Shown piece by piece: positions 15,584-22,588 of a stretch of 51,556 nt of DNA. Each line of letters starts with the position of its first letter. The first letter of the stretch is position 1. Position numbers and translations under genes: made by a program. The notes below the pieces were generated by a model. It was not told the DNA's origin. It was given only the letters and a program-made list of their open reading frames with translations, and ran no database searches. This DNA comes from Cochliopodium minus (taxonomy: Eukaryota; Discosea; Himatismenida; Cochliopodiidae): positions 1-51,556 of the forward strand of contig JAMYWO010000207.1 in assembly GCA_024220525.1 (NCBI GenBank). The letters run 5' to 3'.

Positions 15584-16499
15584 TTATTTAAAGAAACTGT
15601 AAACAAATTCTGTTGCCCAAGTTTTTAATCTTTTCAAATTTTGTCTAAAACAAATTGAGATGTTTTCCCTATTCGGTACATGCCTGAATGCTCGTTCAAT
15701 ACTCTCAGGTAATAAATTCCAATTAATTATGAAGAATTTGAAAATGACTTGCCCAATAAAAAGGAGAATGGTGCAAAGATGTTCAAGGCTGTCATAAATA
15801 TATATATTTTCCTCCAAACTATTCTTCTCAATCAATTCAAAGAGTTTTTGAACAGACCATTTGATTTCTTCTCGATAATTACTTATTCCCTTTTTTTGGG
15901 TTGCAAAACAAGCGCCCATTCCATCTTCAAAGTATAAATTTGCTTCCAAATATGAAGAAAGATTATCTTTGTAATAGGTTTCCAAATTATTTTGTAACTC
16001 ACATCCATTAACAACTATCAATTTCTTCATTTTCTTTTGACAGATAATATTGATGATTGAATAATTGAATTTATCGCTTTCAAGAATAGCTCCATTTTTC
16101 CTAACATAAATGATGAGACTAAAAGGAAGAGTAGTCACTGTTTGGACCAAATTCTCAAGAGCTACCTCATGAGATACTTTTCCTTTATCTGTTTCATGCA
16201 ATCCAGGAGTATCAAAGAAAACAATCTTTTCTTGATGATTAATATAAGCTCTTGTTAAATCTGTACAACCCTTCTCAAGGTGAGTAATTTTGATTTCTCC
16301 TTCTTTCAAACCACAACAATGTTGGATTATTGAACTTTTTCCTTGTTGAGAAGCTCCAAACAAAATAACATTTTTGTAATTTCTTATGTTTGAATCTTTT
16401 TTGTATCTTTTAAAGAGTAAATAATTAAATCAAAGGAACAAAAATAATTTACAATTCATTAAATTCATCAATCCTCATTCCCACTTCTTTAACCTCCAT
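15584..16499 (-). CDS. AIG1/GIMAP-like GTPase
   Basis: Two exons (16453-16499 and 15584-16406) give 289 residues from the ATG at 16499. The G1 P-loop is GASQQGKSS, G3 is DTPG in FFDTPGL, and G4 is NGCE where AIG1 proteins usually have TxxD, so guanine specificity may differ. A helical tail follows the G domain, with a hydrophobic stretch (CTILLFIGQVIFKFFII) that could bind membrane. AIG1-type proteins are septin- and dynamin-related GTPases of membranes. It is divergent from a paralogue at 16703, and its stop lies 32 bp before the glucosaminidase start. Confidence 0.8.
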
Positions 16500-16702
16500 T
16501 TTAGAGACCTTGATTTTAGTTTTTTTTTTTTTTCTTAATTGCAAGTGAAATAGTTTCATTTCTTTATACTGAGCACATTTTCACCGAAAGATGTAACATA
16601 AAATTTAAATAATTTAAAATTTAATTAATTTAATTTTATGAAATTTTTCTTCAACAAAATTCAACCTTTGAAATCTAAACCAAAAAAAAAAAAAAACTCT
16701 CA
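16500..16702. promoter_or_regulatory. Divergent promoter of the two AIG1-like genes
   Basis: A 203-bp A/T-rich spacer between the two divergent start codons. It contains several ATTTAATTAATTT-like runs and a 14-nt A-tract before the plus-strand start. No named factor site was identified; co-expression of the pair is inference from the arrangement. Confidence 0.5.
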
Positions 16703-17365
16703 ATGAATAAACAAACAAACAAAAATGATTCAGATTCAAAAAATATTTTAATTGTTGGACCAGTATCTTCTGGCAAGACATCAATTATTGAGCTTGTGAA
16801 AAATGAAAAATATTCATTTCATGAACTCCCCAATATATTTGCCTTTGTAGATCTTGAAACGTTAGAAGAACAAGTTTCCCTGCTTAAAAAAAAGAAATTC
16901 AATATTATCATCTATGCTAAAGCAAAAAGAGCTATCACCAATCAAGATGAAACTTATTTTAAAATTTTGAAAACCATTTCGGAACATATTCCAAAAATAA
17001 TTATATTCACAAATTGTGAATTATGTGATTCAATGGAAGAGTATTATTCTTATAATATCAAATTTTTTGGAAAAAACATCTTTCAAGGAGGTTTTGCTGG
17101 TTGCTTCATAAATACAATTAAGGGTCAACAACTTTTTAAAGGAGAAATTCTTCAATCTTGCGAAAATGTTAAAAAAGCAATTGATAATTTCTCTTTAAAT
17201 TCACCAACAATCTTGAGACATTTGGATAATGTAGAAATTATGATACAACTGGAGGAGATCCAACAAAATCAACTGAATCTTAAATCTTTCAGCTTTTTTC
17301 CAAATTTTCTTTCCAAATTAGATCTCTTCTCCTCTTGCAGAAAGCCAAGGTCATCAAAGAAATAG
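16703..17365 (+). CDS. Degenerate AIG1-like GTPase, paralogue of the gene at 15584
   Basis: Read as one exon of 220 residues. The P-loop GPVSSGKTS is intact and the G4-like segment IIIFTNCELCDSMEEYY parallels the neighbour's LIVVNGCELQNNLETYY, which supports a duplication. Where the neighbour has FFDTPGL this protein has FVDL with no DxPG, and the region carrying switch I is shortened. It may therefore bind nucleotide without hydrolysing it. The 3' end is uncertain. A strong pyrimidine tract ending in CTTGCAG at 17340 would give a different short tail, and a GTC donor at 17350 would extend the frame to 17483. The simple stop at 17363-17365 is the default. Confidence 0.65.
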   Translation: MNKQTNKNDSDSKNILIVGPVSSGKTSIIELVKNEKYSFHELPNIFAFVDLETLEEQVSLLKKKKFNIIIYAKAKRAITNQDETYFKILKTISEHIPKIIIFTNCELCDSMEEYYSYNIKFFGKNIFQGGFAGCFINTIKGQQLFKGEILQSCENVKKAIDNFSLNSPTILRHLDNVEIMIQLEEIQQNQLNLKSFSFFPNFLSKLDLFSSCRKPRSSKK

Positions 17366-17568
17366 ATCAACAAGTTTATGAAAATATTAATATTGAAGGG
17401 AGCTTGAAACAGTTACATTGACATCTGCTAGCAATGATGAGATAAAACCACAAAAATCAAGCTTGGACAGTGAAAAAACTTAAAGTATTTATTTGAAACT
17501 TTTTTCAATATAAAAATATCCAATTAAATCCCATTTTTTAAAATTTCAAAGATGTTTTATTTGTTTTT

Positions 17569-17790
17569 TCAAAAAATAACATGTAAAAGTTTTTCTTCAT
17601 GTTGGTCAAGGTAACTCCCAACAGTTTTTTCATTTTCACTCATGCTTTTTCCTTTACATACAAGTCTGAATTCATTAGGTTGTTTCTTAGTCCAATCAGA
17701 TAGTTTTTGTTTGACTTGAAGGACTGTCTCTGAGCTATCTATTTCAAGTTCCAAGGATTTACCGAGCAAGTTTTTGAACAAAATCTTCAT
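17569..17790 (-). CDS. Ubiquitin-like protein without C-terminal Gly-Gly
   Basis: Single exon, 73 residues, the size of ubiquitin. The fold pattern is clear: MKILFKNLLGKSLELEID, a helix ETVLQVKQKLSDW, then FRLVCKGKSMSENEKTVGSYL and a last strand KLLHVIF. It stops at HVIF with no RGG tail, so it is unlikely to be conjugated. It may be a stand-alone ubiquitin-like domain. A 21-nt A-tract lies directly upstream of its ATG. It sits between a convergent AIG1-like gene and the reductase gene on the same strand, 65 bp downstream of the latter's stop. Confidence 0.7.
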   Translation of the reverse strand: MKILFKNLLGKSLELEIDSSETVLQVKQKLSDWTKKQPNEFRLVCKGKSMSENEKTVGSYLDQHEEKLLHVIF

Positions 17791-17855: not shown

Positions 17856-20800
17856 TCAAAGATGGAGAAACTTATGCTCGCAAAAATATTTCAGAAAGTG
17901 ATGGATCAGTTTTTCATCGAAAGAAGGGCAAGAAATTGGACAAAGCTTGTAAATATTGGAGCATTCTAATTTGACATTACCCATGTTGGGAAAGGAAACA
18001 GAGAAATTTTGTTTCAAAGGGAAAAAGGGGTTATCTTTTTCTATCTTTTTAAGCTCAGAAGCGAACAGGTTGTAATCCACCATTTTGATTTCTTTGAAGC
18101 CAAAAGATTTTATATGAGGGAAAATACAAGAAAGATTGGTCCTTGCGTTGGGGTTGACAAGGTGAAAGGCTCTCATTGTTGACCAGTCTTCGTATTTGAG
18201 ATTGAGTGTGATGTGGGAGACTACTTGGGAAAGGTAATCTGCACAAGTCCAGTCTATGGAGTGTAAATTAGGTCTCAAAATAGGAAACATTTTAATTAGT
18301 ATCGCTCCAGTAATAAATCTATTGACCCAATCCTCGAGGTTCTAATTAATTTAATTCAAATTAAAATTTTTTTAAAAAAAGAAATATTTATTTTTACTGA
18401 TATTCCGTACTTGGAATCTCCTGCTATCATTCCAGGTCTCCAGATGGTTGTTCTAAGACCAAAACTTCTAGATCTTTCGACAAGAACTTCTGCAACCCAC
18501 TTGGATTGTGTATATCCATTCATATTACAAATAGAAGTATTATTAATTGAAAGTAAAGAAGTATCTTCACTACTATTGTCGGAAACAACCGAACCTAATT
18601 ACAAATTTTTTAATATTTATTTTTTTTTATTTTTTTTTTTACTTGTGGAAATAAAGTGAAAATACTTCATTTTTTTAGATGCGCAGAGTTTCATCAGTTC
18701 TATTGTCCCATTCACATTTTCTGATTTCAGATTCTCGAATGACAAAAAGGAATGAACTCGTGCAGCAACTTTTGAAAAACAGAAATTTTAATTAAAATTA
18801 AAACAGAAATTTTAATTAAAATTTTATTTAAAAAAAAAATTTAAGATTACCATGATAAATAACATCTATTTCCTCACATAGATTATCCCATATTTTTTCA
18901 TTAATACCTAAATGAGGTTTAGTACAATCTCCTTTCACAATTTTGATTCTATTATGATCTCCATTCTCCAAAATTTCCTCCCACATATCCTCCATCCTGT
19001 TTTTGATTTTGGAAAATCCCTCTTCTTCATCCTTACCTCTCACCAGACAGTGGAAAGTTGTTTTGTTACTCCTCGTAGATTTTAAAAGCTCGAACAATAA
19101 ATGTGATCCAAAAAATCCACTAGATCCTTACAATTTAAAAAAAAATAAATAAAATTCAAAGAAAAAAAACGTATTTCTTTACCAGTTATGAGTATGGAAG
19201 ATGGAAGTTTTTGTTTTTCGTATTCTTTGCTATCAATTTGTGTATGAAGGAAAAAACATTCTTTTTTCCAAATGTCCTCTGCAACTTCACTCTGTTAAAA
19301 ATAAAGTATTTTTTAAAATAAAAACCTATTAAAAATCTTTCATACCCAATTAGTTTTGAATTTTTCCAGATCACTCTCTCCATTAATGTATTTTTCCAAG
19401 TCTAAGAAGGTGCAGTTTTTCATTAAAAAATTCATTGGGATCTGCATACCAAAATAGTGTAGGCATTCCTTGGAAAAAGTGACAGATAAAAGAGAATCCT
19501 TTCATTTTTTTTTTAAATTTAAATAAAAGGATTTAACTTTAATTATTGATTACCAAACCATGATCTAATAGGCCATTGTCTATACTCACATCATTATCTT
19601 CAATATTAATCAAATAACAAAACAAACTTTTGAGTCTCTCTGACAAACGAACCTCAATGTTTGTGAGTTTTTCTTTGAGTTGTTGGAATTTTTCTTCCTC
19701 AGAAACTCTCGAAATTTTATTGTCTTGATTTTCTCCATATAACTCTGAAATTTCTTTTTTGAAGTGCTCTAATATTTTTCCTCTACAAAGTTTATATGTT
19801 CCAGTCAACAAGCCATTAGAAACTTTGAACTTTTCGAAAGTAATGAATCTGTTTTCAAGAATAATGATCCAAATGTTTTTTTTTTTTTGAATTTAAATTA
19901 ATATTACAAGTTTGAAGGTATCTCCCAAGTTTTAAATTGTTTGTTTTTTGCGACCACAGATATTTTTTGTTGAAGAGCATTTTTAAATTGTAAAGACTTA
20001 GAAAGGACTCTTTGCTTATTCTTTTCATCTAAATTTGAGAAATTTTGAATATTTTCATTTCCCCAGATGAAAGAAACATCCTCAGAAGGCACTATTAAAT
20101 AAAATTAGTGAAATTTGATTATTTAAAAATCAATCATACCAATGATTGCAACAATGGAGTCTCTTTTTGAATCTTTTTTAAATTTTAATTACAGAAAAAG
20201 CATTAAAAAAAAAATTAAATTACCTCCAACAATTATGATTTGGGAAATTAAAGAAATTGTGTTATATTCAATTTCCCTTTTAAAAAAACAAATTCATTAA
20301 ATTTGATGAGGATGAGTATTTCTTACAAAGATTCTGCTGATACAAATTCTCCTTGTGAAAGTTTAAAAACATTTTTCTTTCTATCAATAATAGAAAACAA
20401 CCTGTTTCCTAATAATTTATTTATAATATGTTTTCACAAAATTTTGAAATAATAAATTATTAACCTTTTTCTTCGCAAATATCTCCCGTTTTGTACCAAC
20501 CATTTTCATCTAAAACTTCATTAGTTTTTTCTTGGTCTTTATAGTATCCTTTCATCACTTTAAATTTATAAAAAATATTTAAAGAAGTTAATAAAATTTT
20601 ATAAAATTTTTTGACTTGTGGTAGTTTTCACACATAATTCTCCTCTTGGAAAAGGTTTGTCATCAATAAAATAGCCCAACTAATAAAATTTTTAGTAAAA
20701 GTGAATAAAACAAACAAAAATTTAAACCTCAGGACAATCAATCAACTTTGCTTCGACGGTGTCGGACAATTTTCCATCAAAAAAGACACTCCCAACTTCC

Positions 20801-22588
20801 GTAGCTCTAAAAATTGTTATAAAGTTACATTTATGAACTAAAAGATTGATTTTACCCATATCCATTCACTACAGTTACACCAAAGCAATTCTTGAGCCAG
20901 TCGGAAACTTCGGTACTCGTTGGAGCTCCTCCTGGAAATAATTTAAAAGTTTGTTTTTTCTTTTATCAAATTTGAAAAATATAATATTTTGATATAAACT
21001 CTTTCAATGAAATCTTACCAGTAACAAAAGCCCTAATTCTCCCTCCAAAAACTTGTTTGTATTGTTTCAACAAATTCTCTTCTGTATCTAATTTTGACAG
21101 CAGATCTCTTTGATAATTGTTATAAACAGTGTTGAAAAGGCGAGGAGGAGATGTGAGATAAGTAGGTCTCACTGTATTGAATTCTTTCATCAGATTTTCC
21201 ATGTCTCCTTGATGTATTGCCACTCTACCTCCGTTCGTCCACAACTTATACATAAGTTGTCTTCCTAACAAAAAAATGTAAAAAAAAGAAAAAATTTAAA
21301 CGAATCTATTTTTAAATTATACCTGTCATATGAGACCACGGAAGAAAAGATAGTATAACTGCAGGTTTCCAATTCCAAAAACCTGTTACATATTTGCTCC
21401 AATAGCTATCATCAATAATCGCCCCTTTGGGAGTTCCTTTTAAAATTAATAAAATAATAAAAAATCTCATTATAAAAAATATGAGTACCTGTCGATCCAC
21501 TTGTGTATACTAAATAAAAATTGAAATAATTGATTTTGGTGGAATTTATTTAAAATCTTACCTATGGTTATAATATCTTCCTTTTTAGAAGGAAATAGCT
21601 TGTATTTATCGAATGTCTTTCTCCCTTCCTCTTCTATTTGAGCTAATTCAAATATTGAAAATTTAAATTCTTTCACTAGCTGTTTTTCTTTCTCATTTAA
21701 AACAACAGGGTCCATAGATATGATTGTCTTCAAATTAGGAACTCTCTCTTTCATCCCTATGAACAGAGGAAGGTATTTTTGTTCGCATATTATCACTTCC
21801 AGTTCAGAGTGTTTTACTATAAACTCTATGGTTTCATCAGACTGAGTTTCTTGAATTGGTACTGTAGTGGCATTTCTAGATGTAATAAGAAATTTGTTTG
21901 GTTAATTTGTTTTTTATTAATAAATCTTTTAAATTTACCCCATTAAGCATGCTAAGTCAGATAACACCCACTCTATCCTTTGTTCGCTACACAACCCCAC
22001 AAATTTTCTATTTCCGTCTGTGTGGTCCAAAATTTTCTTTTTGATGAGACCTTTACGGAGATTGTAGACTCTCTTCTTTACTTCTTTATATTTTATCCAT
22101 TCGAAATTTGCATCTTTTTTAGGCGATACTCCTATCATGAATCTGTTTTTGAATGTATTGAAGCAATTTTCCATTGTATTTACAAAATTATCCGTCAATA
22201 CTTTTTTTCGTTAAAATTTAATTTTTTTTTTTTCTTGAGAGGAACATTAAATATTATACCCTTTTTGGAATTTGCATGATCATCACTATCCTCAGAATTG
22301 AACCATACTTTATCATGTATATGATATATTTTTTTAGGTGTAGAATTTTGGGCATCACCTTTCTCTAATTTGGAATAACATGATGAGCATAAATCAAAAG
22401 ATTCACATTCAAAACAATGGTAATGAGTAGATTCCATCCTCTTTCCACATCCTAATTAGTTGTTTTTAAAAGGAAATTCAAATTTCAAATTTTTTTATAA
22501 TCTACCATCACAACCCCATCTGTAAGAATTAAGAAACATCAAACTCAATTTAATAAAAATTTTACATTGTAAGAGAAGAACTTTTCAT
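17856..22588 (-). CDS. ZZ finger-adenylation-carrier-thioester reductase protein (carboxylic acid reductase type)
   Basis: Twenty-three exons join to 1163 residues: 22566-22588, 22506-22519, 22260-22451, 21939-22200, 21562-21875, 21489-21509, 21323-21436, 21019-21264, 20856-20931, 20728-20806, 20616-20679, 20465-20557, 20327-20408, 20224-20276, 20140-20172, 19908-20091, 19554-19848, 19346-19498, 19183-19291, 18851-19126, 18643-18768, 18398-18594 and 17856-18341. Every phase closes. Domains: ZZ zinc finger (about 11-58; CDGC, CFEC, CSSC, HIH); long-chain acyl-CoA-synthetase-like adenylation domain (A3 VYTSGSTGTPKG about 270, A5 NGYGATE about 420, A7 GWYKTGD about 485, late Lys in TGTYKLCR); carrier protein with phosphopantetheine Ser717 in DHGLDSLLS; Rossmann thioester reductase (GSSGFFG about 803, YTQSK about 964). 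Expected reaction: ATP-dependent acid activation, thioester loading and NADPH release as aldehyde or alcohol. The ZZ finger is unexpected for such enzymes. Confidence 0.9.

Follow-up and report, generated by a model that had tools for sequence, protein, structure and literature searches.

Carboxylic acid reductases (CARs; EC 1.2.1.30) are sought-after biocatalysts, and the ZZ zinc finger is familiar from proteins of autophagy, ubiquitin, and chromatin. Here, we analyze a 51,556-nucleotide stretch of DNA from the protist Cochliopodium minus (contig JAMYWO010000207.1; the window), in which one gene is predicted to join the two. Bacterial and fungal CAR types are named in PMC10168641. In the CAR of Neurospora crassa, a fungal (type III) enzyme, five residues are essential, and their loss abolishes activity: the His of PxxH, the Glu of LSxGE, the carrier Ser, and the Tyr and Lys of GYxxxK (PMC5826065). 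According to the same source, bacterial CARs are distinguished from fungal ones by a Phe next to GE and by the late Lys, and an Asp of the bacterial reductase domain is a Gly in fungal CARs. As judged from sequence, we put at about three in four the probability that the window gene encodes a eukaryotic CAR with an added N-terminal ZZ finger, which would reduce acids via a carrier and would use the finger to dock on a protein partner.

The gene (22588..17856, minus strand, stop at 17856) comprises 23 exons encoding 1163 residues in the order ZZ, adenylation domain (A), phosphopantetheine carrier domain (PCP), and reductase domain (R). Its 22 introns, placed by hand, are all of the GT-AG type, measure 46–87 nt, and contain 6–22% GC vs 34% in the coding part. 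The features are as follows.

17856..22588, minus strand: whole gene, ZZ-A-PCP-R; hand-spliced model, matched by a trained gene finder
22315..22512, minus strand: ZZ zinc finger, residues 11–58, exons 2 and 3, CDGC/CFEC/CSSC/HIH; Pfam PF00569, 29.8 bits (residues 11–44); Sequestosome-1 ZZ best in the Protein Data Bank (PDB), 9e-06
22201..22259, minus strand: intron 3, 59 nt, at the ZZ-to-A join; the sole place where the fusion depends on splicing
19719..22105, minus strand: adenylation domain with C-terminal part, residues 109–660; PF00501 (AMP-binding) over 109–474, 190.7 bits; H311, E424, E520, K636
19385..19640, minus strand: phosphopantetheine carrier domain, residues 687–753, Ser717 within DHGLDSL; PF00550 (PP-binding), 33.7 bits
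17865..19195, minus strand: thioester reductase domain, residues 799–1161, TGSSGFFG and GYTQSK; PF07993 (NAD_binding_4) over 801–1042, 191.1 bits; TIGR01746 over 799–1161, 240.6 bits

Each of the four Pfam domains scores above its curated cut-off (21.4 bits for ZZ). The diagnostic motifs fall at residues 11–14 (CDGC), 25–28 (CFEC), 34–37 (CSSC), 56–58 (HIH), 270–280 (YTSGSTGTPKG), 712–718 (DHGLDSL), 801–809 (ITGSSGFFG), and 964–968 (YTQSK). The spliced model and these domains bear out the original prediction of a single 23-exon gene encoding ZZ together with A-PCP-R. A first automatic model, made with a crude splice score, had 21 exons and 1124 residues, and lacked part of the A domain along with the first two Cys of the finger. 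Chance can be ruled out as the source of the ZZ-A-PCP-R arrangement because of the E-values and because the arrangement recurs in paralogues.

The kind of enzyme

In the spliced model A, PCP, and R stand in one chain, as they do in CARs. The best PDB matches of the protein, 5msc (1.7e-98, collinear over residues 142–1018) and 5mso, are both named carboxylic acid reductase; the third, 5msp, is named thioester reductase and corresponds to SrCAR (PMC10168641). At the top of 85 NCBIfam families stands carboxylic acid reductase (carboxyl_red, NF041592) with 511.3 bits over residues 105–1013, that is, over A, PCP, and R, and the thioester reductase domain TIGR01746 exceeds its cut-off of 213.35 bits. 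With these bacterial (type I) CARs, the window protein shares the A-PCP-R order, PxxH, TE, LSQGEF, the late Lys, the carrier Ser, TGxxGxxG, and GYxxxK. A plasmid collection contained 1050 records with a match, of which 13 span 80% of the query at a single place; among the 12 records listed, three are annotated as CAR (Mycolicibacterium, Tsukamurella, and Streptomyces) and nine, from Sphingobium, as ligase or oxidoreductase. The three plasmid CARs and one Sphingobium gene formed our reference set.

A tree of A domains (16 rows) was built from five members of the ZZ family described below, the four references, and seven long-chain acyl-CoA synthetases (ACSLs), three from the same genome and four bacterial; it omits the fragmentary family loci C31b, C243, C320, C1, and C394, and includes neither a fungal CAR nor an aminoadipate reductase. 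The CARs and the ZZ family are set apart from the seven ACSLs with support 100/98. The ZZ family takes two changes on this tree and is recovered as a single group in 18% of 200 bootstrap replicates, C349 sits on a long branch, and five of the 16 rows deviate in composition. When prokaryotic contigs were scanned with two peptide patterns, both from the A domain, 40 loci were found, none of which matches past residue 668; the four of these that were put in the tree grouped with the ACSLs. The corresponding viral scan turned up 79 matches to the patterns, without a relative among them, and 25 phage records had a match, none covering 80%.

The PDB matches, the best NCBIfam match, and the tree thus uphold the carboxylic-acid-reductase-type A-PCP-R enzyme of the original prediction, but its ACSL-like adenylation domain is not supported: the domain groups with CAR adenylation domains, away from the ACSLs of its own genome. 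By homology, the enzyme is of the CAR type and not an ACSL, and the CAR reaction (reduction of an acid to the aldehyde at the expense of ATP and NADPH) is well founded for the window protein. The fungal CARs, known here from PMC5826065 rather than from an alignment, resemble the window protein in the A-PCP-R order and in the Gly that replaces the bacterial reductase Asp (PMC5826065, PMC10168641); unlike them, the window protein has the Phe that follows GE as well as the late Lys, and carries a ZZ finger. The PDB R-domain chain 8aep, which we set beside the fungal CARs, matches the window protein at 1.6e-14.

Alignment with the four bacterial CAR or CAR-like references places all five essential residues in the window protein, as H311, E520, S717, Y964, and K968. 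The A domain also contains E424 of the TE motif, and both F521 (after GE) and the late Lys K636 are bacterial-like. The position of the bacterial reductase Asp is occupied by Gly991, whose counterparts are Asp in Mycolicibacterium and Sphingobium, Gly in Streptomyces, and Asn in Tsukamurella, so that two of the four bacterial proteins are themselves without this Asp. Exchange of the Asp for Gly reportedly lets a bacterial CAR over-reduce, a report that our literature search did not find. The Arg-x-Gly spacing of R989 and G991 agrees with R870 and G872 of Neurospora CAR. Since the Neurospora enzyme reduces octanal at >40% of the rate with octanoic acid (PMC10168641), an alcohol is a possible end product; Gly991 is no proof of over-reduction because the CAR of Mycobacterium marinum over-reduces as well (PMC10168641).

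The ZZ finger and the family in the same genome

The finger scores above the cut-off of PF00569 and holds all four ligand pairs (C11/C14, C25/C28, C34/C37, and H56/H58). For residues 1–76, the best PDB matches are the ZZ domain of p62/Sequestosome-1 (5yp7, 9e-06) and fission yeast P35G2.11c (7dd9, 1.4e-05), which we take to be an Nbr1 homologue; the finger of the paralogue C31b prefers P35G2.11c and HERC2. In the p62 ZZ, D129 and D149 hold the α-amino group of the ligand, D129 and N132 its Arg side chain, and R139 and D147 the second residue (PMC6197226). D12 and D32 of the window protein align with D129 and D149; N132, R139, and D147 are replaced by G15, H22, and S30. Two of the five residues of a p62-type recognizer of N-terminal Arg are therefore kept, and selectivity for Arg is not expected. 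From these five positions, we infer that the window ZZ would bind a free N-terminus without preference for Arg; the identity of its partner is a guess. Unlike the p62 module, this ZZ is fused to a metabolic enzyme. The counterpart of D12 is Asn in C561, Lys in C31a, Arg in C349, and Thr in C394, and because it is not kept throughout, the partners of the finger may differ across the family.

A search for paralogues across the genome that contains the window (598 contigs, 44.65 Mb in all) listed 44 matches; loci are named by contig, C207 being the window and C31a and C31b two loci on contig C31. Eight loci (C207, C19, C561, C31b, C243, C320, C1, and C349) encode on a single strand, one after the other, a finger (ZZ or ZZ-like), A, and R. 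The PCP was matched by Pfam in six of them (C207, C19, C561, C1, C243, and C31b); a DLGGTSL stretch is visible in the C349 model, and in C320 the carrier was neither seen nor matched by the Pfam PCP model. Models run through all four parts in C207, C19, and C561 only, and the other loci are pieces. On these matches, the window gene is a member of a family of ZZ enzymes in its own genome. The modeled C19 gene (1179 residues, 10 exons) is 55% identical overall to the window protein, with 17/28 identities in the finger core, 317/552 in A, 36/67 in PCP, 130/244 in R, and 4/18 in the linker. About 6 kb from this gene and on the opposite strand, at C19 216114–216647 (plus strand), lies a partial copy of it (late A domain), near-identical by eye, which looks like a recent duplication of a fragment.

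Two further loci are less complete. In C394, the six-Cys finger has no His pair close by, and the model of the A domain stops before any carrier. C31a has finger and A, with no R detected downstream. On the same contig, a carrier-plus-R piece at ~130–133 kb (plus strand) has no A or finger in the preceding 4.6 kb; C31a, from ~152.8 kb on, lies ~20 kb from it, and the two are possibly halves of one rearranged gene.

In the 10 finger stretches, the six Cys are kept throughout and a His pair is nearby in nine. Pfam ZZ scores above the cut-off were obtained for C207 (29.8 bits), C19 (29.6), C31a (24.0), C31b (22.8), and C320 (21.7). The C1 finger reaches 33.0 bits on a hand-joined stretch, a join that no GT-AG intron makes. 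The ACSL models of the same genome (two on C77 and one on C60) start without a finger.

Proposed mechanism and competing readings

In the proposed mechanism, the A domain would use ATP to convert a carboxylic acid to the acyl-adenylate, from which the acyl group would pass to the phosphopantetheine arm on Ser717. For phosphopantetheinyl transferase, there is one matching locus in the genome, on C22, with a model that is run together with later frames; its start we take, by its motifs, to be an Sfp-like protein, which would attach the arm. With NADPH, the R domain would then reduce the thioester to the aldehyde, perhaps further to the alcohol. The reaction is read from homology, and the acid is a guess. 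The ZZ would stand outside the chemistry and tether the enzyme to a protein partner, most probably by holding a free N-terminus.

Several observations weigh against this reading. The window protein, which unlike bacterial CARs has an N-terminal ZZ, is only 25–27% identical to the listed bacterial CAR-like genes; its 511.3 bits are far below the 1300-bit cut-off of the equivalog NF041592, and we therefore place it outside that bacterial group. Within the family, the PxxH His is Trp and the GE Glu is Val in C561 and C31a. The fingers of C243 (19.9 bits) and C561 (16.2 bits) score under the Pfam ZZ cut-off, those of C349 and C394 are not matched by the Pfam ZZ model at all, and the C1 finger depends on a GC-AG intron, which the C1 sequence allows. 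At the join itself, intron 3 (22259–22201) is the only link between ZZ and enzyme in the C207 gene, and its acceptor is purine-rich. With the weakest gene-start penalty, our second gene finder splits the gene there, into a 97-residue ZZ protein and a 1078-residue protein from Met86 (22174). At two stronger settings, it recovers the 23-exon model exactly, in the cut-out and in the whole window; because it was trained on long frames of the window together with the exons and introns of the C207 gene itself, the finder that joins ZZ and enzyme is not independent of the C207 model, and its agreement is a check of consistency.

The split output is exactly what two adjoining genes with intron 3 unspliced would look like, and the compactness of the genome, in which 53 nt separate the stop of the upstream gene from this start codon, would suit such an arrangement. 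Two genes would, however, leave only 20 nt between stop and start, and of the nine residues encoded between intron 3 and Met86 (77–85), six agree with the C19 paralogue, as expected of coding sequence. The paralogues also speak for one gene: whole finger and start of the enzyme lie within one open frame in C31a (163 residues), C31b (209), and C320 (112), and in C19 a 118-residue open frame runs from the second Cys of the finger into the enzyme, crossing the join without an intron. C207 intron 2 and C19 intron 1 interrupt the finger at an identical position (CD|GC, phase 1). A separate message for the ZZ exons, the case by which the original prediction would have fallen, is made unlikely by these joins, and we give the two-gene reading next to no credence. 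The join looks like a true family trait rather than an error of gene reading, and, short of a cDNA, these observations establish the fusion of ZZ to A-PCP-R in one protein.

The remaining alternatives concern what the fused protein does. An aminoadipate reductase, or an A-T-R enzyme akin to nonribosomal peptide synthetases, acting on an amino acid would have the identical A-PCP-R order, and the aminoadipate reductase model TIGR03443 does match the PCP-R part (199 bits, residues 661–1111). The CAR model reaches 511 bits across A, PCP, and R, and the A domain has the PxxH and LSQGEF of CARs and groups with them, on a tree without an aminoadipate reductase; activity on an amino acid is thus very improbable. 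A pseudo-enzyme, catalytically dead with the ZZ kept as a scaffold, would agree with the loss of the essential His and Glu in C561 and C31a; C349 has Ser and Asn at these positions. The window protein and C19 retain all five essential residues, and we hold this explanation to be scarcely credible for the window gene. Since C561 and C31a have lost both residues, family membership is no guarantee of activity, and part of the ZZ family may not activate acids. An enzyme that activates fatty acids, its fatty aldehyde or alcohol entering a pathway to waxes or ether lipids, is somewhat easier to entertain, though still unlikely: Neurospora CAR reduces aliphatic acids from C3 to C9 (PMC5826065), and the genome holds two separate fatty acyl reductase-like genes (C161 and C244, named by eye), but the A domain is not of the ACSL type on the tree. 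For the fatty aldehyde, alcohol, or wax pathway that the original prediction drew from an ACSL-like A domain, the analysis found no evidence. A search for the wax synthase family gave no match, nor did its control.

If the CAR with a built-in docking finger is real, this protist family would mean that a ZZ module can direct the reduction of small molecules to a partner, and, if docking holds, nature would offer in ZZ-CARs a template for the tethering of CARs. Family members in which the fold persists but the two A-domain residues are gone would provide a natural experiment on the role of those residues. A bolder extension, which we offer as speculation with the odds well against it, is that the family has expanded into a set of zinc-finger-addressed reductases and that the ZZ, by gripping free protein N-termini (the window copy having kept the Asp pair and lost selectivity for Arg), assigns the formation of aldehyde or alcohol to particular partners or compartments; one branch, without the A-domain His and Glu, would have abandoned acid activation and would serve as a partner-binding regulator or use a ready-made thioester. 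Our literature search, outside which most subscription papers lay, found no paper joining a carboxylic acid reductase with a ZZ-type zinc finger, none joining ZZ domain, acyl-CoA synthetase, and domain architecture, none by title on eukaryotic CAR families, and none on protists or amoebae with a title to the point.

Surroundings and other loci

A scan of the window for Rfam families and tRNA returned none. Elsewhere in the genome, a model on C9 (stretch L040, 1378–6996) begins, by eye, with calponin-homology-like sequence, continues with two adenylation domains, and ends like a nucleotide cyclase; it may represent several merged genes. On C280 (4849–5034), a carrier domain lies within an open frame of 2058 residues, perhaps a polyketide or peptide synthase. 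The genome also has one Fe-hydrogenase locus. In the window, the upstream neighbor whose stop lies 53 nt ahead of the ZZ-A-PCP-R start codon is SMC2-like by eye. A 73-residue frame, ubiquitin-like by eye, follows 65 nt past the stop (17569–17790, minus strand), and beside the gene lie two divergent GTPase-like models, AIG1-like by eye, at 15584–16559 (minus strand) and 16703–17483 (plus strand).

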